A DNA stretch of 62,878 bases, from assembly GCA_026392115.1 (NCBI GenBank), contig JAPLCQ010000039.1, forward strand, positions 1 to 62,878, given 5' to 3'. Both the position numbers and the translations under genes were made by a program. Origin of the DNA: Armatimonadota bacterium (lineage in GTDB: Bacteria; Armatimonadota; Chthonomonadetes; Chthonomonadales; CAJBBX01). Below are positions 15,253 to 60,280 of the stretch, in pieces (the first letter of the stretch is position 1; each line of letters starts with the position of its first letter). The notes under the pieces were generated by a model. That model did no database searches. It was not told the origin of the DNA and was given only the letters and a program-made list of their open reading frames with translations.

Positions 15253-15293
15253 GGTGGGGTGTGCGGTCGGTCTGCTGTGCCGCACACCCCACC
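15253..15293 (+). other. 14-bp perfect hairpin between pilC and pilD
   Basis: GGTGGGGTGTGCGG (15253-15266) is exactly complementary to 15280-15293, with a 13-base loop. There is no downstream T-run in either direction. It occupies the gap between pilC and the prepilin peptidase and may insulate or modulate read-through. A rho-independent terminator is unlikely without the U-tract. Confidence 0.65.
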
Positions 15294-15332
15294 CATCACG
15301 GTTCCTGGTTGGACCCGGGGAAGGGTGGCGGC

Positions 15333-16343
15333 GTGCCGGACGTTCCTGGCGAAGTGTGGCGGGTGCTGGCGGGGCTCTTCGGCGCTGTGGTTGGGAGCTT
15401 CCTCAACGTCGTCATATGGCGCATGCCGCGAAACGAGTCCATCGCGTTCCCAGGCTCCCATTGCCCGCGGTGCAACCACGAGCTGTCCGCTTGGGAGAAC
15501 GTGCCGGTCCTGAGCTGGCTGCTCCTTCGCGCGAAGTGCCGGAAGTGCCGCATGCCGATCTCGGTGCGGTACCCGGCCGTGGAGTTGCTGAACGCGATCC
15601 TCTGGGTTGCGGTCGTGGCGCACTTTGGTCCGGGGCCTGACGCGGTCGCCTACTGCCTGTTCGGCTCGGCGATGATTGCCGCGTTCGCCATCGACTGGGA
15701 GCACTACATCATCCCGGACGAGGTGAACGCCTTCGCGCTGTTCGTGGGCATCGGGCGCGACCTGTACGGCGCGTGGGCGGGTGAGCCGGCGCATGCGCTC
15801 TTGATGGGCTGGATGCCCCGGTCCGTGGCCGCGGGCATTCTCTGCGCGTCGGCCTTCGTGGGGATTCAGATACTGGGCAGGGGCCTGTTCCGGCAGGACG
15901 CCATGGGTGACGGTGACGTGAAGCTGGCGCGCGCCATCGGGGCGGTGCTGCCGGTTCACCTTGCCGGTGTATCGTTCCTGTTCGCCATCGGGGTGGGCGC
16001 GGTGGTCGGTTCGGTGATGCTGGCGGTGGCGTCGTGTTGTGGGAAGAAGCAACCCGTCGGCGAACCGGTTGAGGCGGCTGCGCTTGAGCCAACGCCTTGG
16101 CCCGTGTTGTTGCGGTGCGGCCTGCTCTATATGACCTACCTGGACATGGCGCCGCGCCGTGCCCACGCCGTATTGCTCCGCTGGTCGGGCGCCGATACGC
16201 TGGTGGACGGCGAAGATGACGATTTCCAGCCGGGTCCGACGCACATACCATTCGGGCCCTACATGGTTCTGGGCGCCGGCCTCGCCGTGGTGTTCGGTCA
16301 GGCCGCGGTGGACTGGTACCTGACGACGGTCGGATGGAAGTGA
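15333..16343 (+). CDS. pilD: Prepilin peptidase
   Basis: Membrane aspartyl protease and N-methylase that cleaves prepilin leaders. The N-terminal domain carries GSFLNVVIWRMPR and a tetracysteine zinc site (CPRC, then CRKC about 22 residues later). The two catalytic Asp residues are in AFAIDWEHYIIPD and GDGDVKLARAIG. Several hydrophobic helices follow. A loop of about 70 residues before the last helix is longer than in model enzymes. The GTG at 15333 is preferred because the membrane domain starts directly after it; its ribosome site is weak. Placement between pilC and the prepilin genes fits its role. Confidence 0.93.
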   Translation: MPDVPGEVWRVLAGLFGAVVGSFLNVVIWRMPRNESIAFPGSHCPRCNHELSAWENVPVLSWLLLRAKCRKCRMPISVRYPAVELLNAILWVAVVAHFGPGPDAVAYCLFGSAMIAAFAIDWEHYIIPDEVNAFALFVGIGRDLYGAWAGEPAHALLMGWMPRSVAAGILCASAFVGIQILGRGLFRQDAMGDGDVKLARAIGAVLPVHLAGVSFLFAIGVGAVVGSVMLAVASCCGKKQPVGEPVEAAALEPTPWPVLLRCGLLYMTYLDMAPRRAHAVLLRWSGADTLVDGEDDDFQPGPTHIPFGPYMVLGAGLAVVFGQAAVDWYLTTVGWK

Positions 16344-16506: not shown

Positions 16507-17427
16507 ATGCATAGACGACAATCTGTCCGGGCGTTCACGCTCATCGAGTTGCTGACAGTGATCGCGATCATCGCGGTCCTGGCGGCGATTCTCTTCCCCA
16601 TGGTCGGTTCGCTGCAGGAACAGGCCCGCGCGTCCTCATGCATGTCCCAGTTGCATCAGGTCTACGTGGCCGCCATGGTGTACCGCGAGGACGAGGGCGG
16701 CTTCCCGCCGGCCCTCCTCGGCTACGTCGAGGTTCAGGATGCCGGCGCAGGCTGCACGGCCGACCCGACCATGCCCCGCGGCATCCCCTACGGCGGCAGC
16801 GGTTCTCCCTCGCCCGTGGGCCGGGTCAGCAACGGCTTCCTCTACCCGGAGCAGGTCAAGGCGGCCTCCACGTTCACGTGTCCCGACATTCCCGTCACGG
16901 AGCGCGACAAGATCACGGTCGCCTACTTCCCCAACACGCAGACCGGCGATCCCCTGGCCGCGGGCTACTGGGACCGGAGCTGGATCGGCGACTCGCTGAA
17001 GGCCAAGGGATGCCCCTCGGACGCGGCGGGGACGGTCGACTGCTTCTGGGACATCGATCCCAACGATCCGTGTCTGGGTCATCTGCACATGCAGCCGCGG
17101 TACTTCTACGTTTCCGACGCGTTCGACGTGAGTCCGCGAGTCGGCTCCGACGGCAAGTCGGTTCGCGACGCCAACGGTCAGATCATCTACGACCGCCACT
17201 ATAGCCCGGACTGGACCGGCGTGCGCGGGGCCACAGACTGGGTGAACCAGCTGAAGTACTCGGCGCCGCCCACCGCCACGACGCTGCTCACGCTCTGCAC
17301 CTGGCATACCGCCGGCGCACGGTCGGATAGCGCCACGGCGATCAACCTGGCCGGCACAGCCAAGAAGATATCGATTCGCGATGCCATGTCCAAGGGACCT
17401 GCCGTCTTCGTCGGCAGTGACGGCTAG
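16507..17427 (+). CDS. FimU/GspH-like prepilin with type III signal
   Basis: Prepilin-type protein: basic leader, then AFTLIELLTVIAIIAVLAAIL with the conserved Glu5 and a long hydrophobic helix. The residue before the predicted cleavage is Ala, not the canonical Gly. The rest (about 270 residues) is a secreted domain with paired cysteines. It ends in a FVGSDG motif resembling the H-X9-DG tail of large prepilin-like proteins of Planctomycetes and Armatimonadetes. First in a row of prepilin-like genes, it holds the FimU position of the minor-pilin cluster. It could alternatively be the major pilin, since no other obvious one is present. Confidence 0.8.
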   Translation: MHRRQSVRAFTLIELLTVIAIIAVLAAILFPMVGSLQEQARASSCMSQLHQVYVAAMVYREDEGGFPPALLGYVEVQDAGAGCTADPTMPRGIPYGGSGSPSPVGRVSNGFLYPEQVKAASTFTCPDIPVTERDKITVAYFPNTQTGDPLAAGYWDRSWIGDSLKAKGCPSDAAGTVDCFWDIDPNDPCLGHLHMQPRYFYVSDAFDVSPRVGSDGKSVRDANGQIIYDRHYSPDWTGVRGATDWVNQLKYSAPPTATTLLTLCTWHTAGARSDSATAINLAGTAKKISIRDAMSKGPAVFVGSDG

Positions 17428-17451
17428 CTGGAGCTCCGAGAGGGCTGTGAC

Positions 17452-19266
17452 ATGAAGACGCGACAGCGTGGCGCCTCACTCATAGAAGTGCTGGTCGTGA
17501 TGGTGCTCCTCACCGTGGGCATCCTCTCGCTGGTGCGCCTGTTCCCGGGCGGCTTCTATGTGAACAAGACCACCGAAGCCGCAACCCTGGCCGCCCGCTT
17601 GGCGAAGCAGGAGTTGAACCGGTACGCCACCAGTTCAGCCACGCTGATGGATGGCGTCATCCCGGCCGTCATCGTGCAGGACGCCAACTCGCCCGTGGGC
17701 TACTACATCCGGGCGGACCTGGGCGTGACGCCCGACGATCTGAGCGCGGTCCCGCAGGGGACGGTGCCGGGCATCGATTCTTACTATCTATCGGATATCA
17801 ACAAGTACCGATGGATCAAGGGCGAGACGGTGCGTATCCCGCCGCCGTCTCCGCTGGGTCCGGGCGTCCGCGGCTCAGTCTACATGCTGAGCGCCGGTCC
17901 CGCGTTCGACTATCCGGGCATCGACGTATCCGGCGCGGTCGTGGAGAGCATCGCCGTCTACGGTTCGCCGCTGATCCGGCGCATCCAGCAAGTGGAGGAC
18001 GAATCGACGCCGATCCTGGGCGGCCCGTCACAGTACGCCATTGACTACGACGACGGCGCCATCGCCTTCTATCCGGCGACGTTTCAGCGGACCTTCCAGA
18101 TCAGCTACTCGTACAATGACAGCGCCGGGCAGTTGCAGAGCGTTTTGTCTCAGCCCATCGTCGTGCCCGCAGCCGGCTATGCCGTCTGGCAGCCCATCTA
18201 TGTTGCCGGCGGCCGGGACGTCGTGCCAGGCACCGATGTGGTCTCGCGCCGCTTCAGTCGGCTGTCGTTCCCGCCGTCGTTCAGCAACGATCCGTACGAG
18301 TACGCAGTCGTCCCGCGCACCAGCAGCATCGCCGACTTTGCGACTATGGGCGTGATGATCTTCAACCCGCTGGGCCGCGATTACGTGGAGACCGGCGCGT
18401 ACGGCTCCATCCCGTTCTCGGCCAAGATCGACTACAACGTGCTCGACTGGCGCATCATCCGGGATGACCGGCCGATGCCCGCCCTGCCGCCGTACTCGAT
18501 CCGGCTGAGCTTGAAGAACGTGATGGCCGCCGGGGACATGCAGGACGACAATCGGGTCTACCGCGGCCTCTGGCGGGCCGACAACGCGCCCAGCGCCGAT
18601 CTGCTGGTCTACAACCTGGCCAACGGCGCTGAAGTGCCCCGAGACCAGTACACCGTGGACTACCACGAGGGCGTGGTCTACTTCACGAACGCCTACGGCG
18701 ATGCCAACGCCTCGGGCAACTACCGCATCCTCTACAAGGCGCGCGGCGGCTGGGGCGTACAGGTGCAGAAGGCCGCGTCGAGCTATCGTCGCGCCTCCGG
18801 CTACGGCGCCAATCTGGGCTACGCCGAGTTCTACCTCGGCGGCGGCTCGGCGGGCGGCGTGGCGACGAAGATGTACTTCCCGCCCATGGACGCCGGGCGC
18901 ACGATCACGATCCGCGATGTCTGGTACCTCTCCCGCAACACGATCACGGGAACAGAAACGGTCCGGCACGCGACCAATGAAACGTACAAGATCAACTCCT
19001 CTGTGACAGCCTTCGAGCCGGTCGGGCCGAGCCGCCTGACGTGGATCGACCTGCGCGACAACCATGACTCGGTCACGGACCGCGCCATGGGCTGGGCGCT
19101 CAGCGAGCCCGTCCAGCCGGCGCAAGGCGTCCAGGGGATATCGTTCAAAGCTCGTACCGTCTGGAGCGACGGCGGCCAGGTAACGGCGACGGCAAACGGC
19201 AACGTGCCCCGCATCCGCTGGCGCAAGATCGATCTGGACACATTCCTGACCCGTAGCCCCTATTGA
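17452..19266 (+). CDS. PilV-like large minor prepilin
   Basis: Prepilin with cleavage context RGASLIEVLVVMVLL (Gly at -1, Glu5 present), then a 570-residue extracellular region, several times longer than Proteobacterial PilV (about 170-200 residues). The opening TVGILSLVRLFPGG is typical of PilV N-termini. The distal region is Tyr/Asp/Gly-rich and contains repeated strand-turn segments such as YDDGAIAFYP, DYHEGVVYFTNAYG and ILYKARGG, suggesting beta-sandwich modules. It ends next to the following gene in a compact operon. Function inferred from position and N-terminus only. Confidence 0.72.
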   Translation: MKTRQRGASLIEVLVVMVLLTVGILSLVRLFPGGFYVNKTTEAATLAARLAKQELNRYATSSATLMDGVIPAVIVQDANSPVGYYIRADLGVTPDDLSAVPQGTVPGIDSYYLSDINKYRWIKGETVRIPPPSPLGPGVRGSVYMLSAGPAFDYPGIDVSGAVVESIAVYGSPLIRRIQQVEDESTPILGGPSQYAIDYDDGAIAFYPATFQRTFQISYSYNDSAGQLQSVLSQPIVVPAAGYAVWQPIYVAGGRDVVPGTDVVSRRFSRLSFPPSFSNDPYEYAVVPRTSSIADFATMGVMIFNPLGRDYVETGAYGSIPFSAKIDYNVLDWRIIRDDRPMPALPPYSIRLSLKNVMAAGDMQDDNRVYRGLWRADNAPSADLLVYNLANGAEVPRDQYTVDYHEGVVYFTNAYGDANASGNYRILYKARGGWGVQVQKAASSYRRASGYGANLGYAEFYLGGGSAGGVATKMYFPPMDAGRTITIRDVWYLSRNTITGTETVRHATNETYKINSSVTAFEPVGPSRLTWIDLRDNHDSVTDRAMGWALSEPVQPAQGVQGISFKARTVWSDGGQVTATANGNVPRIRWRKIDLDTFLTRSPY

Positions 19267-19280
19267 GGCGAGATGGCGCA

Positions 19281-21281
19281 ATGAGAACCCGGAATAGCCA
19301 GGGGACAAGAAGGCAAGCCTTCACGCTCATCGAGGTCCTGGTAGTGATGGCCATCACGGCCATCCTGCTAGGGCTGATCCTTGGGCCGCTTATGCAGGGC
19401 TTCGACCTCACCCAGCGCGCCCAGGTGCAGGTGCAGGCACAGGCCACCGCGCGCTCTGTGATGGAGCATCTCGAGCGCGACCTTGCCAACGCCGTCTATG
19501 TCTTCGATAACTCAAATCGCCCGGTGAACCTCTGGGTTCGCGACGGCGCAGGGGCGCCGATGATGAGCCGGTTGGACTACGCGCTCGTCGACTACGTCCC
19601 GCCAGCCTATGCCAACGACCAGAACCCCGGCTACACCGGCTCGGTCGATCCCACCACGGGGTTGCCGTCGGACCGGAGCACGCTGGCCCTGCCCGTCGCG
19701 CCCGGCCGCATCATCGTTCGTTGCTGGCTGGGCCTGAAGGACAACAGCACCGTCAGCGCGGGGGGCGCCTCGGGCCGGCCCATCAAGCCCTACTTCAACT
19801 TCTTCGATGATCCCAAGGGCGCCAGCTTCGAGCAGCACAACCCGGTGATCCTCTACCAGGCCACGGTGTCGCCGTACACGCCGAGCGGTCAGGTGGACAC
19901 GCGGTTGCTCAACGTCAGCCGGTTCGGCAACCTGTCCGCCGCGCTGGCGGACCCGAACTTCTACTATGATAACGACCAGGCCACCGGAGCGATGCCCGGC
20001 TGGAAGGACTGGAACAAAGACGGTCGCGTGAACTACTCGGAGAACTGGCGCGCCGTGGCTCGGGCGCTGGTGCCCACCGACAAGGCGGACATGGTCATCG
20101 CCACGCGGGATCGGAACAAGAAGCCCGTCTTCGATACCGACCCTGCGACCGGCGTCGTCACCATGCGCCTCAACACGCTGGCGCGCTTCCAGCCGACCTA
20201 CGTAGGCAACGATCCGGGCGCGCCCAGCGCCGTGACCGATGCAGCCAACGAGCAGCCCTACGGCCTGGCGCCGAGCACCAGCGTGGAGTCCTATGGCCAC
20301 TGGGCCTGGCCCTACCGTGTCTATGTCTACCGTAGCGCCCTGAACTCGGCGGTCCTCAGTTACTTCACGTGGTCGGGTTCGGGCAACGTTCGCTACATGC
20401 TGTTCGACACGTCGTCCGGGGCCATCACGAACGGCGGCGGCGCGGGTGAGGATACGGGGTTCAACCCGTTGAATCCGACCAACCTGCCCATGAACCCGGT
20501 GGCGGGACGCTTCCTGATGGTCTCGGTGGATGATCGGCGGGGTACTGTAGGCTTCGCCTTCCCGCACTGGATCACGCAGGGCGGCAGGCAGGAGCCCACC
20601 GTCCTTTCGCCCGGCTCGGTGAATGCGGAGTTCGATTACGCGCGCAGCCAGGCTTCGGGCCAGCTGAGCGCGATCCGGTACGCCAGCCTTCAGGTCGCCT
20701 CCGACGAGAACCCGACGGGCGTCACGCCGGCCCTGAACCCGTCAGACGCGAATCCCGTGCTGTCCCGTATCCCCGACGCGCGTATCGTGCCGGGCTCCGA
20801 GACGGTGACCGGACCGGACCAGCGCCCGGGGCCCAACTACGGTCGACCCATCGCCTACACGCGAGTGGCGCGCCGGCAGGACCCCAAGTCGCTGGGGCTC
20901 AATGAGTACATGATCAACTACGGCGATGTGAGCAACGCCAACCTGGCCATTGCGGACCCGGATGCCCGGATTCAGGCCATGCGCCGTGCTGTGCAGCGTG
21001 TAGGCACGATCATCTTCAACAGCCAGGAAGACGCATCAGGTTCCATCAACTCGCTGCCCACGCAGTATGTCGACAGCGCCGGGGCGATCCGCGACGCCGC
21101 CGATATCACTGTGACGTTCCAGGTGCAGAACAATCGATCATCGGATGTCGTCAAAGCCGACTACCTGACCCGCCAGTTGATGACCTTCGCACTGGGCGTC
21201 AGATTGTATGAGAAGCACTCGGGGCAGCCCCAGCAGGTCTCGCTGACGCAGAAGATTCGCGTCCGCAATCTGCAGCGCTGA
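19281..21281 (+). CDS. PilW-like large minor prepilin
   Basis: Prepilin with AFTLIEVLVVMAITAILLGLILG (Ala at -1) followed by a helix resembling PilW/PulJ (TARSVMEHLERDLANAVY). Total about 666 residues, far above the usual 200-350. The ATG at 19281 is selected because GAGGCGAG lies just upstream and the TTG at 19263 overlaps the preceding stop. The extracellular region has no motif I can name beyond Tyr/Gly/Asn-rich beta-like segments. PilW position in the FimU-PilV-PilW-PilX order supports a minor pilin role. Confidence 0.72.
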   Translation: MRTRNSQGTRRQAFTLIEVLVVMAITAILLGLILGPLMQGFDLTQRAQVQVQAQATARSVMEHLERDLANAVYVFDNSNRPVNLWVRDGAGAPMMSRLDYALVDYVPPAYANDQNPGYTGSVDPTTGLPSDRSTLALPVAPGRIIVRCWLGLKDNSTVSAGGASGRPIKPYFNFFDDPKGASFEQHNPVILYQATVSPYTPSGQVDTRLLNVSRFGNLSAALADPNFYYDNDQATGAMPGWKDWNKDGRVNYSENWRAVARALVPTDKADMVIATRDRNKKPVFDTDPATGVVTMRLNTLARFQPTYVGNDPGAPSAVTDAANEQPYGLAPSTSVESYGHWAWPYRVYVYRSALNSAVLSYFTWSGSGNVRYMLFDTSSGAITNGGGAGEDTGFNPLNPTNLPMNPVAGRFLMVSVDDRRGTVGFAFPHWITQGGRQEPTVLSPGSVNAEFDYARSQASGQLSAIRYASLQVASDENPTGVTPALNPSDANPVLSRIPDARIVPGSETVTGPDQRPGPNYGRPIAYTRVARRQDPKSLGLNEYMINYGDVSNANLAIADPDARIQAMRRAVQRVGTIIFNSQEDASGSINSLPTQYVDSAGAIRDAADITVTFQVQNNRSSDVVKADYLTRQLMTFALGVRLYEKHSGQPQQVSLTQKIRVRNLQR

Positions 21282-21326
21282 TGGCTGGGCTGATCACCGC
21301 CTTTGCATAATGGGAGCCGGACAGGC

Positions 21327-24281
21327 ATGAAATCCACCTCAGGAGTGCGTATCGCGCAGCGCCGGCGCAGCCGGAGCGGCCAGTCGCTGATCGTGGCCGT
21401 GATCGCGCTGTTCGTGCTGCTGTTTCTGGGCGGCGTGTTTGTCGGGATGATCTCCAGCAACCTGCTCAACACGGGTAGGGCGCGGGACACCGTCTCGGCC
21501 TACGCGTTGGCCGAGGCCGGCGCCCGCTACGCCTCGGAGTTCCTTGAGAACAGCCCCGAGGGTGCGGACTGGCGCCCGGCGCCCACGCCGCTGCTCGACA
21601 GCCGCGATCCCGACCGGCGCTGGCTGGAGACGGGCGAATACACCCGCCTGATGCTGGATAAGGGCCGAGCCCTTATCCGCGTCAGTATGAAGCCCAACCC
21701 GGCCGATCCCAACGGCAAGTACATCGACATCGAGTCCGTGGGCCGATCCGGGGTCCTTGATCCCACCGACCCGACGACCTACGTCAGCTCGCCGGCGCCG
21801 CGCCTGAACCGCACCATTCGAGCGAAGAAGGCCATCGGCATCACGGACTACCTGCTGTACGTGACGAACCGGGACCGCGAGAGCAAGTTCGAGGCGACCC
21901 TGGGCGTTCCACCCATCGGCGTGCCGCTCTGGATGCAGCTTGGCGGCTTGCCGGTGCGCAGCCTGGGTGGAAGCCCGAGCTTCCCGACGCCCGGCGCCCC
22001 GATCCGCGTGAACGGCGACTTGCGGCTCCTGCCCAACGTGACGCTGGCGGTGAACCCGGCCAACAACGAATCGATCCTGGTGGCCGGCAAGGTGAAGGTG
22101 GCGTCCGAGGTTCCGGGCGACCCGGCGCAGCAGGCTCCGCGGTTCCGAAACCTGGCCGCTGCGGCGGGCGTTGTGGACCCGTCGGGCCTGCCGGCGATCA
22201 TCCCGAGCGAGAGCAGCCAGTACAGCACCTTCGGTGGCCTCCTTCGCGACGATAACGCGGCTCCCGACAACAGCGATAATTCACGCGGCTATACCCGGAG
22301 CATCTCCGCGCTGCCTCCGCCCAGCCTGGAGGCGGTTGACCAGTCCACCGGTGTGAACCGATACCGCCTCTCTACGCGGGATTCGGGCCTCTGGATTCGC
22401 CGCAAGCGCGACAACCGGTACGTCAATACTGGTCGCTACGGCCTGGGCGCGGGCCTGTACGTGGACAACACTTCCAGCATCGAGAACCAGACCCAGGCCA
22501 TCGACGGCGGCCAGTCTCTCCGGTCGCTCTGGCTGAAGCCTGGCAGCAACTACTGGACCGGTCCCTACTATATCCCGCCCGGCGCATACATTGAACTCGG
22601 CTACCAGGTCGTGCAGGAGCAGGCCGCAGACGGGACGCCGCTGGCGGGCAAGTACGTCAGCCAGCCCGGTTTCCGCGTCGTGCGTGACGCGGCCGACCGA
22701 CTGTGGCGCGATCCCAACGGCGTGGTAAGCACTCGCGAGCAGGCGTTCACCTACTTCATCTACAAGCCGGTCGGCCAGAAGCCCGTGGTGAAGCTGGACA
22801 ACGCATTCTTCCGTGCGTTCCTGCGCACCGACCAGGGAATGACCGACGCCGAGATCGACCGCTTCCTGCCGGCCTTCAACGGCGTGGTGTATGCCGAAGG
22901 CAACGTGCGGGTCCGCGGCTTGCTGCCGAACCTGGCCAACCTGCCGGTTCGTGTGCAGAACGGCGATATCGACAACCTGACCGTGGCCGAGATCCGCGCC
23001 AGGGTGAACGCCCCGGCGCTGACCATCGTCTCCGGCGCCTGCATCTACATTGAGGGAAGCATCGTGCGCGAGCGTGGCGGGACCGAATCCGGCTCGGCGG
23101 GCTCCATGCTGGCGCTGCTCGCGAAGGACTATGTGGTGGTCAACACCACGATGTTCGTAGCCGCGAACAAGGGGACGATGCCCTTCGTCGCCAGCAACGA
23201 CGACGAGGCGGCTCCGTTCCATACGAACATCACCGTGGAGGAGGCCGGCCAGGCGCCGCCCTTCTCGCTGAGCTTCCAGTTCGGCGACGATCCCACGTCC
23301 TACACCTCGGATGGTGGCTACAACGGTCTGCAGTTGCTCACGCGGCATGGCGCGCCGGTCGGCGTCACCTATATGAACCTGCTGATCAATGAGGCGTTCC
23401 CGATGCCGGGACAATCGCCCATGTACGAGTTCAATCTGGTGACCAACGCGCCGTATGTCTACCCGATGACGAACGGCAGCCTTCAGGGCGCCGACCTCTT
23501 CGAGCAGCGGGCCTTCTCGCTGGCCGGAGGCGGCTCCTACCGGCTGATCACGACGCCGGGCGCCGTGAACACCCTTCGACCCAGCGTCGATTCGAACTAC
23601 ACGGCGGGGCAGGGGACGCAGGACTACCTCTTCAGCCGAATGGCCGTGGCGCCGCTGGACGTTCGGATCGAGGCCGTCCTGTACGCGCAGAACGGGTCCT
23701 TCTTCATCATTCCGGGCTATCCGCTGAACACGAACCCGGCGGACACCGCCCTGGCGGCGCGGCGCAACGCCGAGGCAAACGGCGGCGCGGTGGGCTCGAT
23801 GCTGCGGCCGGCGGGCACGGCGGACGTGTTCCCGTTCTACGCGCAGCCGACGGATGTCCGTATCACCGTGGTGGGCGCCGTATCGGAGAACCGGACGGCA
23901 TCGGTGGCCGACCAGGCCGCATGGATGCAGCTCTGGGGCTACATCCCGGCGGTCAACGGCTCCACGGATGCGGAGGGGCAGACCGCGGCGACGCCGCCTC
24001 GGGAGCACCTGTTCGTCACGGAGACCGGCATGTCGGTCGATTACCGCGCCAACGTCGAACGGAGCGCGAAGATAACGCGCGGGCTCAGGTTCCTGTATGA
24101 TCCCGCGCTGATGGCCCCCTATGTCGGCTACAGCCCCGGCGGCGGATCATTCAACAGGGCGCCCGGCGGCTGGGTGAACTATACCGGCGGCGCCTTCAGG
24201 CAGGATGAGCACGGGCGCACGCTGCCTCCGCTACCCAGATTGCCGGTCTGTCCGGGGTTCGTCTTCTTTGGTGAGGCGTAG
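21327..24281 (+). CDS. PilX-like pilus assembly protein, very large
   Basis: N-terminus resembles PilX: basic segment (RRRSRSGQSL), a single hydrophobic helix (IVAVIALFVLLFLGGVFVGM) and the amphipathic YALAEAGARYASEF that follows in PilX_N proteins. The remaining 900 residues form a large exported domain with no motif I recognise; PilX is normally under 200 residues. The ATG at 21327 is preferred; a TTG at 21303 would add eight residues. Fourth in the minor-pilin order. It may extend the tip complex or anchor the two larger downstream proteins. Confidence 0.7.
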   Translation: MKSTSGVRIAQRRRSRSGQSLIVAVIALFVLLFLGGVFVGMISSNLLNTGRARDTVSAYALAEAGARYASEFLENSPEGADWRPAPTPLLDSRDPDRRWLETGEYTRLMLDKGRALIRVSMKPNPADPNGKYIDIESVGRSGVLDPTDPTTYVSSPAPRLNRTIRAKKAIGITDYLLYVTNRDRESKFEATLGVPPIGVPLWMQLGGLPVRSLGGSPSFPTPGAPIRVNGDLRLLPNVTLAVNPANNESILVAGKVKVASEVPGDPAQQAPRFRNLAAAAGVVDPSGLPAIIPSESSQYSTFGGLLRDDNAAPDNSDNSRGYTRSISALPPPSLEAVDQSTGVNRYRLSTRDSGLWIRRKRDNRYVNTGRYGLGAGLYVDNTSSIENQTQAIDGGQSLRSLWLKPGSNYWTGPYYIPPGAYIELGYQVVQEQAADGTPLAGKYVSQPGFRVVRDAADRLWRDPNGVVSTREQAFTYFIYKPVGQKPVVKLDNAFFRAFLRTDQGMTDAEIDRFLPAFNGVVYAEGNVRVRGLLPNLANLPVRVQNGDIDNLTVAEIRARVNAPALTIVSGACIYIEGSIVRERGGTESGSAGSMLALLAKDYVVVNTTMFVAANKGTMPFVASNDDEAAPFHTNITVEEAGQAPPFSLSFQFGDDPTSYTSDGGYNGLQLLTRHGAPVGVTYMNLLINEAFPMPGQSPMYEFNLVTNAPYVYPMTNGSLQGADLFEQRAFSLAGGGSYRLITTPGAVNTLRPSVDSNYTAGQGTQDYLFSRMAVAPLDVRIEAVLYAQNGSFFIIPGYPLNTNPADTALAARRNAEANGGAVGSMLRPAGTADVFPFYAQPTDVRITVVGAVSENRTASVADQAAWMQLWGYIPAVNGSTDAEGQTAATPPREHLFVTETGMSVDYRANVERSAKITRGLRFLYDPALMAPYVGYSPGGGSFNRAPGGWVNYTGGAFRQDEHGRTLPPLPRLPVCPGFVFFGEA

Positions 24282-24329
24282 GGGCCAAGTGGCATCCATG
24301 CAGGCTTTGAACGGTCAGGTGATCCGACC

Positions 24330-27300
24330 ATGAGAATACCAAGATGGCTTCTGGGCGTGGGACTGGCCGCGTCGGCGCTGATGTCGTTTCAGGCGCCGGC
24401 CGCGGCGGACGCGGTCACGTATGCCTCCACGCGCCAGATCGTGCGCGCGGGCATCATCGCCTCCAGTGCGCTCAACATCGGATCCACGGGAAGTGAGAAC
24501 CCGGACCCGCATGTCTTCTACGTGCTCGAGAGCCGCGCCGACCTGAAGCCCAGCGGCCTCGAGTTCGTGAACCCCCTGGCTCCGGCCGCCATCACGGGCG
24601 ACATCTATGCCCGATGGAAGCGCCGAGATCGGACCGGGAGCGATCCCGCGTTCGTGGCTGGCTCCGCGCTGGCCGACGTTTTCCGCGTGGGCGCGCGGGT
24701 CACGAAGGACATGGGCGCCTACTGGGAAGTCAACGTGGATACGGTGGCGTCCCAAGACCTGCAGCAGTTCGATGTGCTCTTCCTCCACTCGCACAAGGCC
24801 AACATCGCCTTCCCTGCCGAGATTCGCGAGAAGCTCCGGCGCTACGTCGACAGCGGCGGCACGCTCTGGATCGAGCAGTGCGGGAACATGACCTTTGCCA
24901 ACGGCTCGCCGTTCATGCTGGACGTGCAGTTCAACGCTGCCGCGTCCGGCGGCGGCCCCGGCACCCCGGGCGGCGTCATCGCGGCGCCCAATCACCCGTT
25001 GCTGAACCAGCCCTATGCGCTCTCGGCGAACGAGGTGCAGTCGCTGGGCGACAAGAATATCCGGTTCTGGTACCTCTACTATCCGTTCGACGCGAACCTG
25101 AATCCGAGCGCCGCACCGGGCGTCGACGACCTGAACCCGCCGGCGTCGCATACGCTGGTGCCGGTGGTCTGGAACAGCCGCGGCTATGCTCCGATCGACG
25201 ACGTGCGCCCGAACCCCGGCTGGCGGCCCTACGTGTTGGCGGGTCAGGTCGGCGCGGGCCGCGTCGTCTATACCGCCCAGGACACGGGCTGCGCCATCAA
25301 CGACTATGTCGGCGGTGTGAACGTGGGCTTCGGCGGCAACAGCGGGGCGATCAGCGGCGGCGCCGTGCTCGGGTCCAAGGCGTCGGACGTGAAGTTCGCG
25401 TACAACCTGAGCGTATGGGCGACCTCTCACCGCACGGTCGGTTCCGATGTGCGACGCGTTGGTAGTTCGCCCGCCCGCACGGCCGCCGTACTGGAGGAGA
25501 AGTGGACCTCTCCGGCGAGCGGTGCGCTGGACCGTCAGGTGGGCGGCGCCGTCTTCTTCAAGGGCTGCGTCTACGCAGTGGGCGGCGACCTGGTGCTTCG
25601 ATGCTTTGCAGCCAAGCCCGGGGCGGATATCGACGGAGACGGCAATCCGGATCAGGGCATCCCGGACTTCATCGCCGGCGCCCCGTACGATCTCATCTGG
25701 CAGGTCGACCTGAACCGCTACGGTTCGGGCAACGTGAAGGGCGCGTCGGCTCCCACCGTCATCGAGTTCTACGATCCCTCTTTCACCGGCGCCAGCAACG
25801 GCTTGGTGAACCAGCAGCTGCGCGAGCTCGTCGTCGTGACGCTTTCGGACGGCGCCGTGGTCGCCTGCCGTGCGTTGCCGCGTGCGGCTGATGCGTCGGG
25901 TCGCCTTGTCCTGGCCGGTGTGCAGAACGGCGAGAACGTGGACTGGGTGGTGCCGGCGTCGCAGACCGGCGCGGTGGACTTCGGCGCGCCGACGGTGGAC
26001 CTTGCCGCCGCCGAGCGGTTCTATTGGCCCATCCCGGCTCCCGCCTGGTCCGAGGGCGCGCTCTTTGTGGCGCTGAACACGAACAAGGGCGGGGTGGTGG
26101 CGGCGATTGATCCGCGGCGGGGCTCCAGCCTCTTCCGCGTCCGGAAGCCGGTGGGGGTGGGCGAGGCGATGGTGCCAGACCAGGCGGCCTTCCCGCTGAC
26201 GTCCATCTGTGGTTCTCCGGCCGTCGGCTACGTGCGCGACAGCGCGACCGGCGCAGTCGACAAGGTGATCTACGTCTCCACATCGCCGGGAGGCGGCCGC
26301 GCGGCACAGGTTCTCGGTATCCCGTTCATGACGCGCGGCGAGCCGCTCACCGTCGTCTCCTCGGCGACCAGCGTCTTCAGGTCGCGTGCCCGTGTGCCCT
26401 GGTTTGTCCCCAACACCGCCGGCGCGGACGGCGACAACCTGATGCTTCGGCCCCGTGTCTACTGCACCTACCGGGATGCGGCGACCACGGCCTACGGTTC
26501 AAAGGAGCTGACCTACACCTCGGCGGCTTCTCCGGGCGCCAACGAGTTCACTGCCAAGTTCGACATGGGCGAGGCCCGCGTCATCATCGGTTCCAGCGTC
26601 AGCGTGCCCTTCGAGCGGGCGGACGGCAGCACGGGCTCCGTTGGCGTTTCGCAGCCTTATGACGAGCGGTTCACCTTCTGCGCCGACTATGTCTACAACT
26701 GGTCGCCGCTGGTGTCCGACCCGCCGGTGAAGGTCAATGCACGGTCGGCGTTCATCGCGCCGGACCCCACGAGCACCAACTTCACGTTCAGCCAGGGCGT
26801 GACGTTGACGCCCGACGACCTCATCCTATTCCAGTCCTATACGCAGGCTGGCATGCCCGGTCGGTCGACGCTGTTCGCCGCCAACGAGCAGGGCTCGGCG
26901 CAGTCCAAGCTGAAGTGGACCTACGTGTTGAACCAGCCGTTCCAGATGCGGGTCAACGGTGAGTTGATGACCATCGCGCCCCGGTTCGCCAATCCCTCAG
27001 GCCATCCGATGGACAATGCGGTCTTTGTCGGCCAGCCGGCGTACAACGACGATACCGTCTACGCCGTGGCCCGCGTTGGGTCCGGGCAGTTCCGAACATC
27101 GGTCCTGTGCGCGTTCAGGGCGAAGCCGGACTTCGTCCTGCATCTGGGCAGGCCCATCGACCAGGGCGTTCGCATCCGCGTTCGGCAACCAAACCCGTAC
27201 ACGACCACGGCCGATCCCGACGCCTTCATCGAGATGGCCTCGACCCAGTACACGGTGGATTACACGGCGCAGACCATCCGCATCTCGGCCATGGCGCCGC

Positions 27301-29345: not shown

Positions 29346-29486
29346 CCCGGCTCAGTCGGACAATCGGGGCGGGGTAGGGTCCGGAACGCAGTACGTCGCT
29401 CCGGGCCTTGCCGCAAGGCGCCCTCCCGGGCCATCAAATGTGTTAGGTGGGGCCACAATGGCCGTACGGATAGGGTGGATCGTTCC
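29346..29486 (+). other. Intergenic leader before the largest pilus-cluster gene
   Basis: A 141-base gap. It contains a small hairpin (GCCTTG and CAAGGC around 29405-29420, CCG loop) and a GGATAGGGTGGA purine-rich stretch that probably serves as ribosome site. I see no convincing promoter or terminator. Confidence 0.4.
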
Positions 29487-32400
29487 ATGAAGCACACTCG
29501 AATGAGTTCCCTTGCCGGGCTGGCGGCGCTGCTGACGGCGACGGTCGTCGGGCCGGGAGCTTGTCAGACGTTCACGGGCAGCGACTGGCTTCACGGGCGT
29601 GGCGGCCCCCAACGGCGCGGCTCCAACTCAGACCCCGGCCTCGACTCCGCGACCAGGCAGCTCGGTCGCGTCTGGGTCTATCCGGCCACGCGCGACCTTC
29701 CGGCCGAGATCGTGGTGGACAACACCGCCCTGCCGCCCGACGCCGCCAATGCTACCGGCCAGGCGTTTGAAGTCTCAGGCGCATGGACCTACCCGGTCGT
29801 TGCAGATCGAGCCTACGGAGCCTGGCCGCCCAGCGACAAGACGACGAGCAAACTGGGCGACTATGTCTATGCGCCCGCCATCCATAGCGCGGAACTCGGT
29901 ACGTTGGGCGCCGACATACTTGCAGGCCTGCCCGTCCTGGGCACTGACGCCGCCAGCACCACCGCGTACCGGACGATCCAGAACGCCCTGAAGGCGAGCA
30001 CCACTTATGCCCGCTGGACCTTCGGGACCGCGTACCCGGCTTCCACCAAGCAGGGCCTGGTGGACGTGGGGAGCCGGGCCCTGCAGCCCAACCAGCGGTA
30101 CGCGGTCTACATTCGGTTCCCGTCCAGCGGCACCACCATCGGCGCCAACGCCCACCCCAATATCGACCATGCCATGGTGCGGGTCAGTTGGGGATCGGAC
30201 CCGGACGACCCGATCAAGAGCCGCATCTTCATGGCGGACTTTGGGCAGACCGGCGGAGCTTGGATACGCATCCGCGCCGGGTCGGGCGACGACCGCTACT
30301 TCCCGTACGACGGGACGAACCCGATCCGGGTCACGCTCTATGCAGAGACCCCGGATGCGGTCACGGACACGTCGGCGTTCCCATATTCGCCCATCGTCGC
30401 GGCCGACGCCGTGCGGCTGGTGCCTGAGGCCCTTCGCGGCGATATCCATGCTCCTGCCGTGAGCGCCGTCTTCCCGGCAGGGGATGCCACGAGCCATACC
30501 GCCTACACGCAACTGACCTACTTCGGCCGCGATGAGACCACCGGTCCGGCATACCTCTTCCCGACCACCGCCAAGTACACCAACGCGTCAGGGTTCGGAG
30601 CCGTCACCCTGGACCCGTCCGTCGCCTACGACGCGACGACCAATCCGATCATCGCCGATCCCACCTCCAGCATCCGATCGGCGGTGTTCTACTGCATGCA
30701 GGATGATGTGGACACGGTCACCCCGGCGAACGGCAAGTACGGCAAGCTCCGTTGGCGGTATGTGGCCAAGACGCTTCAGACCAAGAACTACACTATTGAC
30801 GATGCGGACGCGGGCTTCACCACGGGCGCGACGCCACTGGACTTCCCGCTCATGAGTCCGGTCCCTGCGGCGACGGATGACTTCTACGGCGTCAACTACC
30901 GCGCCGTGGCCGCGCAGGCGAGTTCGGTCGCTCCGCGCACCGCCACATGGTCGGCCAGCCTCCCCGAGGGAACCTATTCGGTCTACGCGTGGATCCCGGG
31001 CGCCGCCTCGCTGACACCCACGCAGGTGGCGCGCAAGGCGCACTACGCCATCGCCACGCTGGCGGGGACTGTGGACGTGTGGCTGGACCAGCGCAACACA
31101 TCGGACACCGCGGCGGTAAAGTACGGCACCTGGCGGCTCCTGACATCCGGCGTCCACTTCATCCCGGCAACGGCAGGCGCCACGGTCGACGCGACCGTCG
31201 TGCTTGACAACGTGTCCGCCGAGGATGCGGCATCGGCTCGCGCCGTCGTGGCCGACGCCGTGCAGTTTGTACAGGAGTCGCAGACGTCCAACAGCGTCGT
31301 CGCCTCGCCGCTCGTGGCCGACGTGGCGTGGCCGTCCGGCGTTAAGCGCAAGGTGGTCTACTTCGGCACCACCGACGGGCACCTCTGGGCGCTGGACGCC
31401 CTGGGCGTCGGCGGGCAGAGCACGCTGACCACACCCTACTGGGTCTACCCTTCAGTGGCCAGCCCAGACCCGACTACGGATCTCAACGGCGACGGCGCGT
31501 TCAACTTCCCACAGGACGATCCGAACTTTATCTCGGACCCGATGAGCGGGCGGCCGAATCAGGCCATTGACGGCGATCTCACTTCGTCGCGCCGGGCCGG
31601 GATTTCGACGTATTCGACGAAAAACGTGTTGCCAGACCTGGGCGCCTTCACCTCCTCGCCGGTCTATGTGGAGACCGAGAAGGGCCTTGCGCCCAACATC
31701 GTCCGAACGCCGCTCATCGTGGTGGGCAACGCGAACGGTCGGCTTTACGCGTTCGATCCGGTCGGTCGAGTCAATGCCGCCAATGAGCCCTATGCGACAA
31801 CGATCTCCGCGGGCGACGTGCCGGGCGTGCCGGGCACGACCCGCCGGCTGATGACCTGGCCGTCGACGGCGCGGGACAAGTGGATGGACGCGGGCGGCAC
31901 CGTCAGCCCGAAGCCGTTCAGCGCGTTCAGCGATGATGCCAACGTGGTCTCCATCGGGGCGGCCCCGGCGGCTCCCAAGGTCGATGCGGCCTACCGGACC
32001 GACCGCGTGGTGGTCGGAGCCGGCGACGGCCACGTATATGCCGTGGACCTGCAGGGGCTCGACACCAAGAAGCGCATCTCGAACCCGACCAAGGACGGTG
32101 CGGCGATCCCACTGACGACAACAGCGGGCGGTTCGTCTTCTCGGCGGGAGGCCGCGTCTACTGCATACAGGCGCCTGATACCGCCACAGGCCAGCCGAAG
32201 GACGCCAACGGCTATCTGCGTCCGGACTGGGTCTACCCGTATGCGGCCGCGCCGGGCAATCCGTCCAAGGGCAACGACGTCGATGTGGAGGAGACCGACT
32301 TCACGGCTCCGGCCTACAAGGCGACCGTCCATGCGGACCTGAACAGCGGCAACGCCGTCGCCTTCGTGGCGAACAAGGACGGACGCGTCTTCGCTCTGGA

Positions 32401-35400
32401 TGCCACGCCTACCACCAATCCGTCGGTGGGCCCAACGGTCCTCTGGCAAAGCGCCAGCCGGGGCAGCACCCGGGCATCGGCTGTCTATCTCGATTCGCTG
32501 CCGCCGCAGATTCGCTACGGGCTGGCCACGGTCCACCGGAACCCCGCCATTGTGCTGCCGCTGGAGACGGGCGGCATCGTTGGCTTCTCGGCCGTTACCA
32601 TCGGGACGGCCGACGCCGGAACCCCGGTCTGGAGTCTGGGAGACGCGTCGGTGGGCAGCGTGCCGCTGACGGCCCTCGGCGCCAACAACATTCCGTTGAC
32701 CAACCCGGTTGCCTATCCGACCAGTTCCGCCGGTCGCGGCGCCGACGTCATCACCGGCAACACCTGGGCCTACAGCGGAGACGACGGCAACCCGCAGACC
32801 GGCGAGCCGCACGGCCAGATGCGCGCCTACTGGCGGACCGCATGGGCCAACGACATGCTCGGCCTCGACATGCAGACGCCGGACGAGCCCCTGGTTTCGG
32901 ACGGTGACGGCGAGTCCACGGTCAGCCTGCGCGGCGTCGAGGTCTGGAACGCCGAGAAGGACAAGCCGGTCCTGCCGAACCCGGTCTGGGAGCACTTCGG
33001 CGACACCGTTGCCGCTACCGCCAAATCCGGTTTCACCGAATGGGCGGCGGGACACCACAAGGCCGACAGCGTGGGCGACCCGGACAACATGGTCGTCTAT
33101 GAGTGGGGCGATACGATCTACACCGCGGCGTGGGGCATCATCCGCTCAACGGTGGCCAACCCTCCGCTGCCGACCGTCACATTCCGCCTCTTCGGCTCGG
33201 GCCAAAGCCGGCCGTCTCTCACCGTGGGCTCCCAACGCGACGTAACGCTGGACGCATTCGACTATGGCGATGGCTCCAAGGCCTACGCTTGGGTGGCGAA
33301 GATCGCCTTCCCGCTGGGGCGCGGCTCGGAGGCCGATGCCCAGACGCCGGGACGCCGCTACACGGTCTACGCCCAGGCCCAGCTGAACAGCAACGGCATC
33401 AACATCCCGTCGCTGCAGCTGGCCGCGGGGCAATCGCTGATCAAGAAGTCGGACACCTGGCACCTGGAGCTGAGCGCGACCAACGAGAACAAGCTGGCCA
33501 TAACCGACAAGAGGACCATGGCCATCGCGCATCCGTTGGCCGTGAGCACTCGCGGCGCGCCGGGCGGAGCAGGGGTCGGTCCGACGGTGCCCAACGTGAT
33601 GGGCTGGACCGTGGCGCCTTCCGGCGGCGCGGCGATCCAGGAGCTACTTGCCAACGGTAACCACCGCTATAACCCGCCGGTCGGGCAAGGCGCGCAGAAG
33701 GACATGGTTGCTCCGCTGGGCCTCGTGGGGCACGGCGGCAGCGCCACGTATGTGGGCGTGGACGGTGCGGGGAACCGCCGCGACTCGTTCCTCGTGGCCG
33801 ACCGCAGCAACCTCTACAAGCTTGGCCAGGCACTGAACAACATCCGCGTCGAGCGACGCGGCCTCGGCTGGGCGTACAACAAGGAGTTGGGTGGGGTCCG
33901 AGCCGCCACCGGCGACGTGATGAACCCGTTGCCCTGGGAATCCTTCCCGACGCGTGTGCCCAACGTCTCCAAGGACTACCCGGATATGGACGCCTCACAC
34001 GTCACGCTGCGGGTGGGCTCCATCGACATCGGGACCAAGGCCGCCACGCTGCCGACGGCATGGGATAGCGCGACCTCGACCAAGCGGCTGAACTACGTGC
34101 CCGTCGACCTGTCCGTGCAGGTGCCCAAGTTCCAGCCTGCGAACGTGTCGGCGGCCAACGCCTACGAGGATATCAACGGCAACGTGCGGGCGCTGTACGG
34201 CCCCATGCGGACCGATACCGGGGTCCCGGCCTCCTCGGGCCTCTTCTCGCCGAGCGCGGGCTATGTGGGCCGGATCGTGGTCTTCGTCGACAACAACGGC
34301 GACGGCAAGTACCAGGGCGCGGCGATTCAGACCTCGGCGCAGCAGGCGCAGACCCAGGCGCGCGAGGAGGTCTACCGCTCCGTGGGCGTGGGGCTGGCGG
34401 TGTCGCCGGACCTGAACATGCGGACCGAGGAGGAGACGATCGACCTGGGGCGGGCGCCGCACGGGGCAGGTCTCACGCCGACGATCCCGTTCCTGCCCTC
34501 GGGCATTGGGCCATACGTGAATACGCCGTCGCCGTTCGACTCATCCAACGGCTTCCGGCTCTTCGCGCCGTTCACGGTCCGCAACCAGGGCAATGTTAAC
34601 CTCACCAACCTGCGCGTGGCGAAGGCCGTCGGCAATGCGGCTACCGCCGCCAACCCGTTGTTGTGGCCGAGGCTCAACAGCGATCAGGTGTCGTCCCTGC
34701 AGTCCACCTACCTGAGCTCCGGCGCGCCGATCCTGCTGGGCGGGCTCGACCCGTTGGCCAACTGGCGGCTGAACACGCCGCTGGTGGCGCGCGCCTACCC
34801 GTTGCCCATCGGCGCGGCGGGCGGAGCGGCCAACCTGGGCATCGTCTCCTCGCTGGATCATGCGCGCGGAAACGGCCAGTACGATATCGAGATCGACTGG
34901 AGCCTGGCGCCGTACAGCGCAGCCGCGCCCTGGCCGTTCAGCCTGGCGGCACTGGGGGTGGTTGGCGGCAATCCCTACATTCCGGCGTCGAACCCGCTGG
35001 GTTGGACCGAAGGAGTCAATGCCGTTCCGACGCTCCACAAGGCGCGCCCAGGCGACGGAACGGGCACGACGCTCTCGATCCCCGACGTCTCCTACGGCGA
35101 TCCTCTGGGCGTCCTGGCGACGTTGCGGGCTTCCGGCCGCGACGTTCGACCGCGCATCGGCATCGCGCCGCCGGTCGGTGCGCCGGTCGGCACCTATACG
35201 GGCGTCGTGAACGTGTTCGAGGACGCCCTTCCGGTGCAGTGGCGTGAATGGACTGCCACCTACGCTTCGGTGAACGGCGGCGTCAATCCGTTGGTCACGG
35301 CCGCCGACAATGACGGCATCCTGAACCTGAAGATCGACCCATCCACCGGTGCCATGGTCGGATCGGCGGTTGAACCCACCGTGCAGAACCCGTTCCAGCT

Positions 35401-37537
35401 CCGGCTGATGGTGTCTGAGGCCAGGCTTACCAACGCGCCGCTCTTCCCGACGGTCGGCGGGTCGATCATGCAGACCGACGGCACCTTCCCGCAGATCGAC
35501 CTGCGGGCGCCCAGCGCCAACAACCGCAACGCCGCGGCCTTCGGCGCGAACGTCTCTCCATCGGTCGTCCGGGATCGCGTCAGCGGCGCCATGGTGCTCG
35601 TCTGGTCGAGCAACCGGCCCAACAACGCGGGATCGGCGCCCGAGCGGGCCGATGTGCCGTGGAACCTCTTCACCTCGCAGCTGACGGGCGTGTCGGGCGC
35701 GCTGGGCGCCTTCGGCCCGCTGTACGGTTGGCGCTACGAGCAGACCAACGCCCAGCCCACGCGCTGGTGGCAGCCGCTTGCGGCCTCGGCGCAGTTCCCG
35801 GGCCTGGCGCTGGCCAGCGCGCTCTTCCCATCGGAGACCGCCGACATCAAGGGCAGCGCGCAGACGCCCGTGGTCGCCGGCGCCATCGTCACCAACCCGG
35901 TGGGCGATCCGCTGACGGTCCACGCGGCCCCGGCGCTGATCCAGACCGAGGGTGTACCCAATCCGGCTCAGCCACTCTGGCTCTTCTGGCAGGGCGCTGT
36001 GAACAAGACGGCCGGCGCCTCGGTTTCCATGGACAGCCGGACGTTCTATGCGCCTGTTCGCAACCAGGGCGGCGTCCTCTCGCCGGACCTGACGGTCAAC
36101 AACGGTGTACCCTACTCGTTCCTGAACGATCCGGCGCTGCCCAAGTACTCGCCCAGGCCGCTCATGGCCGGAGGGACCACGTTCCTCTTCTGGCATGGCG
36201 GCGCAAGCGGGCGCACGCGCCTCTACTACAACGTGAATACCGCCAACATCAGCACGCCGACGGCATGGTCCGCCGACGCGGCGCTGCCCGTGCCGGGCGG
36301 CCTGCAGATGGTGGCGGATCCCGTGCCCATTCCCAGACGGCGGATCGACGGATCGACCATCACCGAGATCGACGTTGTCTTCACAGGCCAGTTCGCTGGC
36401 AAGCGGACGCCTGAGCTCTTCCTTACCCGGTACAACGTGGGCGACCTGCTCAACCGGCGTCCGGGGCAGGCGGTGCGGGCGCAAGCCCGGGTCAGCGGCG
36501 AGTTGCTCGTGCGGCAAGGGGCGACGCAGACGTGGCAGTCTCGCGATGTGGCCTGGATCTTCCGCGATCCCACTACCGGCGCCTGGGTCGACGGTACGGG
36601 CAACAGCCCGCAGGTCGTCGTCTACGTCAACGGGTCTCGCGTCAACATCGGCACGCCCACCTATGACAGCGTGTCGGGCAAGCTCTACTTCAACTCGGCG
36701 CTGGGCGGTCGGCTCGTGGTGAACCCGCAGTCCGGCGCAGTAACCTTTACCGACGTTGCGCCAGGCGCCCGGGACGCGGTGACCGCCGACTACACGCCGC
36801 GCACGTTGCGGCTCAACGTCACTCGATCCGACAGCGGCGTCGTAACGGCGCCCAGCGGTTGGGCGGGCGATCCCGGGTACGCGGCGCAGCCCCACGTGGT
36901 GTCGGCGGGGGCCAACACCGTGCCGGTGGCCTTCATCGACCGCGCCATCAATCCTGTGGCCTCTGCGGATCCATCCGGCGACCTGGTGCGCGGCGGACAG
37001 GTCGGGAATGCGCCTGCCACCGTATCCCGCATGTGGGTCATCTACCGCAAGACCGGCGGATCGGAGTCCGGCGGTTCGGGCTCGCTCTATTACAAGACGA
37101 TGCGCCTGGCCGTTCGACTTCCCAGGCCCATCCTTCGGAGCACGGTCGGCAACTCGCTGAAGGTGGCGAACAACGTCGCGGTGGCGGGCAACCGCGGCCC
37201 GGTGGAGATTGACTGGATTCGCGGCCGGCTCTACTTCACGGAGATCGACGAGGGCCAGCGCATCACGGTGACCTTCAACCACAGCGGCGGCTCGCTGACG
37301 GCGGACTACACCGTGGGTTGGGTCGATGAACTGAGCGTGGCCAGCACCCCGGCCGATCAGACGGCGGGCGAGGCGTTGCTTCCCACGCAGTCCGTGGTGA
37401 ACGAGGGGCAGGTGTCGGCGTTCAAGGATCCGTTCCAGGATAAGGTCTGGGTCTTCTGGTCCAGCACCAGGGCGGGCACGACGGACCTCTACTATATGGC
37501 CGTGAGCCCGTCGTTCTATCCCCGGTCCGCCTACTGA
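29487..37537 (+). CDS. Giant exported PQQ-propeller/golvesin-like protein, frameshifted
   Basis: One gene of about 2,680 codons interrupted by a single frameshift near 32095-32125. The upstream frame ends coherent sequence at SNPTKDGA; the -1 frame resumes with DDNSGRFVFSAGGRVYCIQ and stays open to 37537. The protein has a signal peptide and two golvesin-like beta-sandwich segments (one ends VAADAVRLV, the other begins LPEGTYSVYAW and ends VVADAVQFV). PQQ-type propeller repeats VVYFGTTDGHLWALD, VVGNANGRLYAFD, VVGAGDGHVYAVD and FVANKDGRVFALD lie across the break, so the two halves belong together. The C-terminal part repeats a W-x-FW motif next to Tyr-rich strands. The ATG at 29487 is chosen over the GTG at 29475. 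Probably a second PilY1-like tip or adhesin protein. Confidence 0.72.
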
Positions 37538-39017: not shown

Positions 39018-39036
39018 GGGAGGGAAGGAGCCGCTC

Positions 39037-39840: not shown

Positions 39841-39844
39841 TCAT

Positions 39845-60279: not shown

Positions 60280-60280
60280 C

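Follow-up and report, generated by a model that had tools for sequence, protein, structure and literature searches.

A conserved cluster of enlarged putative minor pilins and giant propeller-type proteins in a predicted type IVa pilus locus of Armatimonadota

In Armatimonadota, the main type IVa pilus probably has a priming and tip complex encoded by six large genes, described here from one bacterium of this phylum. The complex would be of the GspI-J-K type, enlarged by inserted domains, with two propeller proteins replacing PilY1. The genes, named P1 to P6, are co-directional and occupy positions 16507-37537 of a stretch of 62,878 nucleotides (nt) of the forward strand (GCA_026392115.1, contig JAPLCQ010000039.1), referred to here as the window. 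An earlier note on the same DNA described a giant minor-pilin cluster in FimU-PilV-PilW-PilX-PilY1 order and raised the possibility of a greatly enlarged pilus-tip complex. Such a complex is still the best-supported reading; the FimU and PilY1 identities, and an increase in size put at three- to tenfold, were not sustained. The list of open reading frames (ORFs) bears out six co-directional genes and, for P1 to P5, the lengths of 306, 604, 666, 984 and 1671 amino acids (aa) first reported. The features are as follows.

P1, 16507..17427, + strand: predicted pilin of 306 aa with a GspG-like, not FimU-specific, N-terminus (PF07963, 27.2 bits)
P2, 17452..19266, + strand: large predicted minor pilin of 604 aa in the PilV/GspI slot (TIGR02523 PilV match, below cut-off)
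P3, 19281..21281 (ATG at 19281), + strand: large predicted minor pilin of 666 aa, of the PilW/GspJ class, its modelled pilin fold holding a large insertion (AlphaFold and VIA-align)
P4, 21327..24281 (ATG at 21327), + strand: large predicted pilin of 984 aa in the GspK/PilX slot, ComZ-like, without Glu5 and with Gln at +1 (AlphaFold and VIA-align)
P5, 24330..29345, + strand: predicted secreted protein of 1671 aa with a signal peptide, DUF4159, PQQ/NHL-type propeller repeats and an Asp/Gly calcium-type loop DIDGDGNPDQGIPD
P6, 29487..37537, + strand: predicted giant secreted propeller-type protein, in two ORFs here and about 2700 aa long in sister genomes, with a frameshift near 32110

Genome comparison shows that the set, the order and the sizes of these genes are conserved across Armatimonadota, and the gene-order check proposed in the earlier note thus came out in its favour. 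A relative of P3 occurs in 173 of the 201 genomes of the phylum. Synteny was followed in 31 genomes of 16 families: P1-P5 are all present and in order in 29 of them, and the remaining two miss one detectable gene with the order kept. Genome G144 begins at P2 because its contig starts there, and G009 carries a divergent prepilin-like ORF in the P2 place. At least two of pilB, pilT, pilC and pilD lie upstream in 28 of the 31 genomes, and pilM or other PilMNOQ genes downstream in 16; the remaining genomes may have these genes elsewhere or beyond an early end of the contig or of the stretch fetched. Similarity identifies P6 in 24 genomes. In G132 and G009, a giant ORF (1989 or 2108 aa) occupies its slot but has no detectable similarity to it; the slot is cut by the end of the contig or of the fetched stretch in G089, G144, G005 and G075, and shows no giant ORF in one of the 31 genomes (G135). 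In G125 (L031/L032), about 10 kb with other ORFs lies between P5 and P6, an exception to the tight order.

Median ortholog sizes for P1 to P6 are 291, 610, 666, 984, 1604 and 2689 aa, and all six genes are under purifying selection, with omega values of 0.03-0.11 between genomes of the same genus. A scan of 84,980 species with P4 returned 129 relatives, with 79 loci listed. Among these 79, most titles that name a phylum give Armatimonadota or its subgroups and some say only 'bacterium'; two give Abditibacteriota, which GTDB counts within Armatimonadota, and two give other phyla (L120, Propionibacteriaceae; L149, Actinomycetota) and are suspected to be mislabelled metagenome-assembled genomes.

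Predicted pilins P1 to P4

Prepilin N-termini are recognised on P1, P2 and P3 by the Pfam N_methyl model at 23.8-29.7 bits, above its cut-off of 21.2 bits. The minor-pilin N-termini described earlier are therefore confirmed for these three proteins; that of P4 is prepilin-like (RSG/QSLIVAV...) and is recognised by no profile. The four proteins agree with the class III prepilin pattern, in which Gly or Ala precedes +1, a hydrophobic helix follows and Glu5 is present except in the PilX slot. Compared with E. coli GspG, GspI, GspJ and GspK, the enlargement of P1, P2, P3 and P4 is 2.1-, 4.8-, 3.4- and 3.0-fold, respectively, in place of the three- to tenfold once suggested. Structure prediction, another of the checks that had been proposed, was run on P3 and P4 and returned a pilin fold in both models.

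The AlphaFold model of P3, built from 29 sequences, has a predicted local distance difference test score (pLDDT) of 85.1 and a predicted template modelling score (pTM) of 0.75. Its top match in VIA-align is the Thermus pilin TTHA1219 (Tt1219; Z 8.5, root-mean-square deviation (rmsd) 3.8, 151 residues), followed by XcpW (Z 7.1, rmsd 3.5, 129 residues), by 9a1f_S, a chain of 198 residues in the XcpGHIJK model that is taken to be XcpW (Z 6.8, rmsd 6.1, 173 residues), and by E. coli GspJ (3ci0_J; Z 5.6, rmsd 4.2, 133 residues). All four top rows are GspJ-class pilins with alignments reaching residue 666, and the fifth row falls to Z 3.8, which supports a GspJ-class pilin fold for the model. The alignment spans residues 41-666 with about 150 of the 666 residues aligned; because of this span, the extra mass of P3, some 475 residues, would lie inside the pilin fold. 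Glu at +5 is kept in 29 of 29 orthologues. Over the N-terminal helix, P3 orthologues match HpsC (22 of 29) and Verru_Chthon C (27 of 29), and the window copy stays under the NCBIfam cut-offs, with 33.4 of 200 bits for HpsC and 24.1 of 256.5 bits for Verru_Chthon cassette C.

For P4, 23 sequences gave a model with pLDDT 79.8 and pTM 0.85. ComZ (6qvi_B) is the top VIA-align match, with Z 10.4 over 322 residues on model residues 38-984; the rmsd of 6.5 is high, meaning that domain placement is not tightly matched. The next row, at Z 7.3, comprises carbohydrate-binding modules on residues within 412-886, and residues 19-169 align with a pseudopilin chain of the XcpGHIJK model 9a1f at Z 6.1. Foldseek also ranks ComZ first (E 2e-3, probability 0.54), and for P3 it returned no significant E-value (none below 0.001). 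Because Foldseek gave no E below 0.001, the fold calls of both proteins are based on VIA-align rows well separated from those that follow. These data support a ComZ-like pilin fold for P4 in the GspK/PilX slot, and by its predicted fold the closest characterised relative of P4 is Thermus ComZ rather than PilX. Glu5 is absent in all 23 P4 orthologues, and its absence is a mark of GspK and PilX (PMC7541494); inspection of the E. coli GspK sequence shows the same lack. Identification of P4 as PilX through PF14341 (PilX_N), or through GspK models, was tried and rejected, with no match in the 23 orthologues. Position +1 of the predicted mature protein (gene at 21327-24281) is an invariant Gln (23/23), where type IV pilins usually have Phe.

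In P2, the PilV model TIGR02523 is the sole one matched consistently, in 22 of 22 orthologues (best 7.9e-9), and the match is confined to the N-terminal helix. The window copy is under the cut-off (28.7 vs 52.2 bits, profile positions 1-59 of 139 only). Glu at +5 is present in 22/22 orthologues, and P2 fits a minor pilin of the PilV/GspI slot.

P1 was weighed as FimU/GspH and rejected, GspH being clearly weaker than GspG in 27 members. GspG is the best model in 27 of 27 orthologues (best E 7.9e-14 vs 2.5e-7 for GspH), so the FimU label is unsupported. Phe at +1 and Glu at +5 are found in all 27. Because its best class is GspG, P1 could be a major-type (shaft) pilin. Within the order FimU-PilV-PilW-PilX-PilY1 first proposed, P2, P3 and P4 thus fit the PilV/GspI, PilW/GspJ and PilX/GspK slots, and the labels at both ends fall away.

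Giant propeller-type proteins P5 and P6

P5 and P6, each starting with a signal peptide by inspection, appear to be beta-propeller-type proteins without detectable PilY1 homology, the propeller assignment coming from profile hits in part of the orthologues. Among 15 P5 orthologues, DUF4159 (PF13709) is matched near the N-terminus in 12, NHL in six and PQQ_2 in four, and the P5 family profile gives hits to propeller structures. A calcium-type loop, DxDxDGxxDxG, lies near residue 360-500 in about 25 of 31 orthologues. In P6, Golvesin_C is matched in seven of 14 orthologues, an ACSF4-type propeller in three and a PQQ-type one (PQQ_2) in three, with profile hits in the PDB as well. The earlier claim that two propeller proteins hold the PilY1 place is thus borne out for position and propeller signatures; identity with PilY1 is not, given the absence of a profile match and the different N-terminal domains.

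A continuous product of 2687 residues had been described for P6. The window instead contains two overlapping ORFs in different frames (29475-32342 and 32285-37537), and alignment with two genomes of the same genus reveals a deficit of about 58 bases near 32.11 kb, which shifts the frame. The ORF is intact in these relatives (G096, 2707 aa; G136, 2706 aa), and wherever P6 was recovered in a relative it forms a single open frame, except where a contig ends within it. Both window halves are under purifying selection, with omega values of 0.078 and 0.058, which speak against long pseudogene drift; the interruption therefore appears to be a recent lesion or an assembly gap.

A weak beta-hairpin motif, VDYxxGxIxF, was noticed in P2 (about 195-210 and 398-428), P3 (about 530-550), P5 (about 970-1000) and P6 (near the C-terminus). 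The strict pattern finds almost nothing outside P6, and profiles give weak hits only, the best about 4e-4 in P3; as an element common to the four proteins, the motif is a lead only.

A putative tip complex and its alternatives

In the proposed tip complex, P2, P3 and P4 would be the equivalents of GspI/PilV, GspJ/PilW and GspK/PilX. Their N-terminal prepilin helices would be cleaved by PilD, and their pilin cores would pack together at the pilus tip, with hundreds of residues inserted into or added to these cores. P4, lacking Glu5 and resembling ComZ, would be the outermost pilin with P3 and P2 beneath it, and P1 would come next below or serve as a shaft-type subunit. The exported P5 and P6 may be carried on the P2-P3-P4 cap as PilY1 is on PilX, and may do the work of PilY1, namely contact with surfaces or polymers, perhaps through calcium-binding loops. 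With PilB for extension and PilT for retraction, a ligand or other cargo bound at the tip could be drawn in, and adhesion or DNA capture may then be the function of the tip.

Several points weigh against this proposal. The placement of P1-P6 in the pilus or at its tip is an inference, and the structural models cover P3 and P4. The Foldseek values given above are weak for both proteins, and a search with the P4 family profile did not return ComZ even among hits with E values as high as 1. P6, at 285 kDa, would need to pass or bypass the secretin, and its interruption in the window genome implies either a faulty assembly or an incomplete complex here.

A more specific form of the same proposal would make the structure a competence (DNA-capture) tip, in which P2-P3-P4 would be the counterparts of the Thermus competence pilins and ComZ, with the propeller proteins as accessories. 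Since P4 is ComZ-like, DNA capture merits attention as an alternative, doubtful as it is. The best structural matches of P4 and P3, ComZ and Tt1219, agree with it, as do the gene order known from Thermus (PMC5131608, PMC6561018), the presence of PilT and a ComEC-family gene in the same genome. The ComEC family search, however, is also positive in E. coli and other control genomes. P4 is not basic (isoelectric point 7.6 for the window copy, family median 5.4), it has no sequence match to ComZ, and a common fold is no proof of DNA binding.

The next alternative concerns the machinery encoded around P1-P6, which, in the ORF list, lie on the same strand between pilB-pilT-pilC-pilD upstream and pilM-N-O-pilQ downstream.

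pilB, 10806..12617, + strand: predicted type IVa pilus extension ATPase (TIGR02538, the highest-scoring of 23 families with 636 bits, against a cut-off of 676; syntenic)
pilT, 12707..13900, + strand: predicted retraction ATPase (TIGR01420, 503 bits, exceeding the cut-off of 319)
pilC, 13943..15208, + strand: predicted inner-membrane platform (NF052607, 430 bits, and TIGR02120, 394.5 bits, each below cut-off)
pilD, 15261..16343, + strand: predicted prepilin peptidase (PF06750, 125 bits, and PF01478, 46.6 bits, each above cut-off)
pilM, 37740..39017, + strand: TIGR01175, 233.5 bits, exceeding the cut-off of 133
pilN and pilO, 39031..40768, + strand: named by position, without a profile match; syntenic blast matches in relatives
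pilQ region, 41749..44341, + strand: TIGR02515 matches in both ORFs; PF00263, 110 bits, at 43772-44278

It is unlikely that this locus acts as a type II secretion system (T2SS), with P2-P4 capping a pseudopilus and P5 and P6 as exported substrates rather than tip parts. Such a role would agree with the similarity of P1 and P3 to GspG and GspJ above all, and with the N-terminal signal peptides of P5 and P6. Denise et al. 2019 assign a T2SS to Armatimonadetes (PMC6668835), and the paper on the Fimbriimonas genome, which reports PilB, C, D, Q, M and PilT with 79 PulG-type genes, likewise assigns a T2SS (PMC4072686). Against it, P5 and P6 are linked to pilin genes across the phylum, and the locus holds pilT and pilM. 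A T2SS is not known to have a PilT. Four more large GspE/PilB-type ATPases are encoded elsewhere in the genome, and those on contigs C24 and C68 share their contig with pilin-like genes and secretins and suit a T2SS better. Because PilT and PilM exceed their cut-offs and GspE-type ATPases with pilin-like genes and secretins lie on C24 and C68, the gene content identifies the P1-P6 locus as that of a type IVa pilus; a T2SS, if present, more likely sits on those two contigs.

The PilB sequence (10806-12617) has an MshE-type c-di-GMP-binding N-terminal domain (50.9 bits vs a cut-off of 38), which suggests that pilus extension is under the control of c-di-GMP. PilQ appears in the form of two ORFs, an N-domain ORF (41749-42549) with a long GGGFGG-type Gly-rich tail and a separate secretin ORF, listed at 42224-44341; in a sister genome, a secretin ORF is about as long (706 aa). 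The gene after pilQ is aroC, named from sequence and syntenic in relatives. A scan for sigma-70 promoters and terminators gave signal no higher than background. The genome as a whole (contigs C24, C68, C25, C55 and C178) encodes 51 proteins of the N_methyl type and five large ATPases of the GspE/PilB type. It also has seven matches to the secretin domain, three of them inside 4 kb of C178, and contig C137 has three consecutive PilT-like ATPase-family matches at 7839-10394. Farther along the window, at 55176-61780, lies a bacterial proteasome/pupylation cluster. It contains a proteasomal AAA ATPase (PF16450, PF17758), a pair of proteins of the Pup-ligase/deamidase type (PF03136, at 489 and 412 bits) and two proteasome subunits, of which the second scores weakly (17.7 bits).

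That P5 and P6 are genuine PilY1 proteins that have diverged strongly, the whole set being FimU-PilV-PilW-PilX-PilY1 with sequence drift, is quite unlikely. The place in the gene order is the same and propeller signatures are present; PilY1 carries a calcium loop, which the Asp-rich loop of P5 resembles. On the other side, PF05567 finds no match among the P5 and P6 orthologues scanned, and a PilY1 search of 151 genomes was likewise empty, with its controls silent too and hence no proof of absence. DUF4159 and Golvesin_C domains are present instead, with no vWA match, and the profile hits include no structure of PilY1. A grouping by chance of large surface proteins with unrelated functions, which only the unusual sizes would recommend, is highly improbable and is excluded as an arrangement by the phylum-wide conservation of content and order, with sizes also kept in the 16 families and prepilin motifs and pilin folds present.

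The proposed tip complex of P1-P6 invites a broader idea, tentative and of less than even probability: that the type IV pilus of Armatimonadota is ancestral and bears a tip complex of some 0.7 MDa (the sum of P2-P6). Three minor pilins would have been expanded by large extra domains, and two giant propeller proteins without homology to PilY1 would have taken its place, as a second evolutionary route to a pilus tip with a propeller. If the six proteins do form one complex, it would exceed the tip complexes studied to date several times over in size, and would occur throughout a poorly studied phylum. It would further mean that all three cap pilins, not the outermost alone, can be enlarged, and that unrelated propeller proteins can do the job of PilY1. 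No description of this six-gene set was found in the parts of the open-access literature searched, subscription journals lying outside that search.

Comparison with known systems

With the GspG/H-I-J-K set of the T2SS, P1-P4 share the G-I-J-K order and class, the predicted GspJ fold of P3 and, in P4, the lack of Glu5 seen in GspK. The differences are the PilT/PilM machine, the absence of a protein matching GspH best, pilins 2-5 times larger, and the addition of P5 and P6. The FimU-PilV-PilW-PilX-PilY1 sets of P. aeruginosa and M. xanthus are alike in minor-pilin order, in the type IVa pilus machine, in a protein without Glu5 in the PilX slot and in a non-pilin propeller-type protein encoded beside the minor pilins. 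Here, by contrast, PF14341 and PF05567 are not matched, the first pilin is GspG-like, the pilins are several-fold larger, and there are two propeller-type proteins with different N-terminal domains.

The cyanobacterial HpsB/C/D system and the Verru_Chthon cassette (TIGR02596/98/99) are matched by the P3 N-terminus, but in the window copy the match covers no more than the N-terminal helix and scores far under the curated cut-offs. Both systems lie in other gene contexts. In Streptococcus sanguinis, PilB and PilC are likewise pilins with extra functional modules; the modules and the phylum are others, the proteins are smaller, and the portions of these accounts consulted describe no giant propeller partner set (PMC8179133, PMC9934059).

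The competence pilins of Thermus thermophilus provide the closest parallel by predicted fold. ComZ, a GspK-like pilin whose last two strands flank an inserted beta-solenoid, is argued to be a DNA-binding tip pilin (PMC6561018), and in strain HB8 the GspI- and GspJ-like pilins Tt1218 and Tt1219 adjoin the larger TTHA1220 (PMC5131608). Unlike PilA2 (193 aa), PilA3 (233 aa) and ComZ (554 aa), P2, P3 and P4 (604, 666 and 984 aa) are all enlarged, and two giant propeller-type proteins follow them; no sequence similarity was detected. The likeness lies in the series PilA1-PilA2-PilA3-ComZ, where, as in P2-P3-P4, a GspI-like and a GspJ-like pilin precede an oversized one, in the oversize domain inserted into the pilin fold in both, and in a pilin motif missed by the usual tools, PilFind for ComZ (PMC6561018) and Pfam for P4. 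This resemblance would tie Armatimonadota to the Thermus ComZ design and makes DNA capture directly testable.

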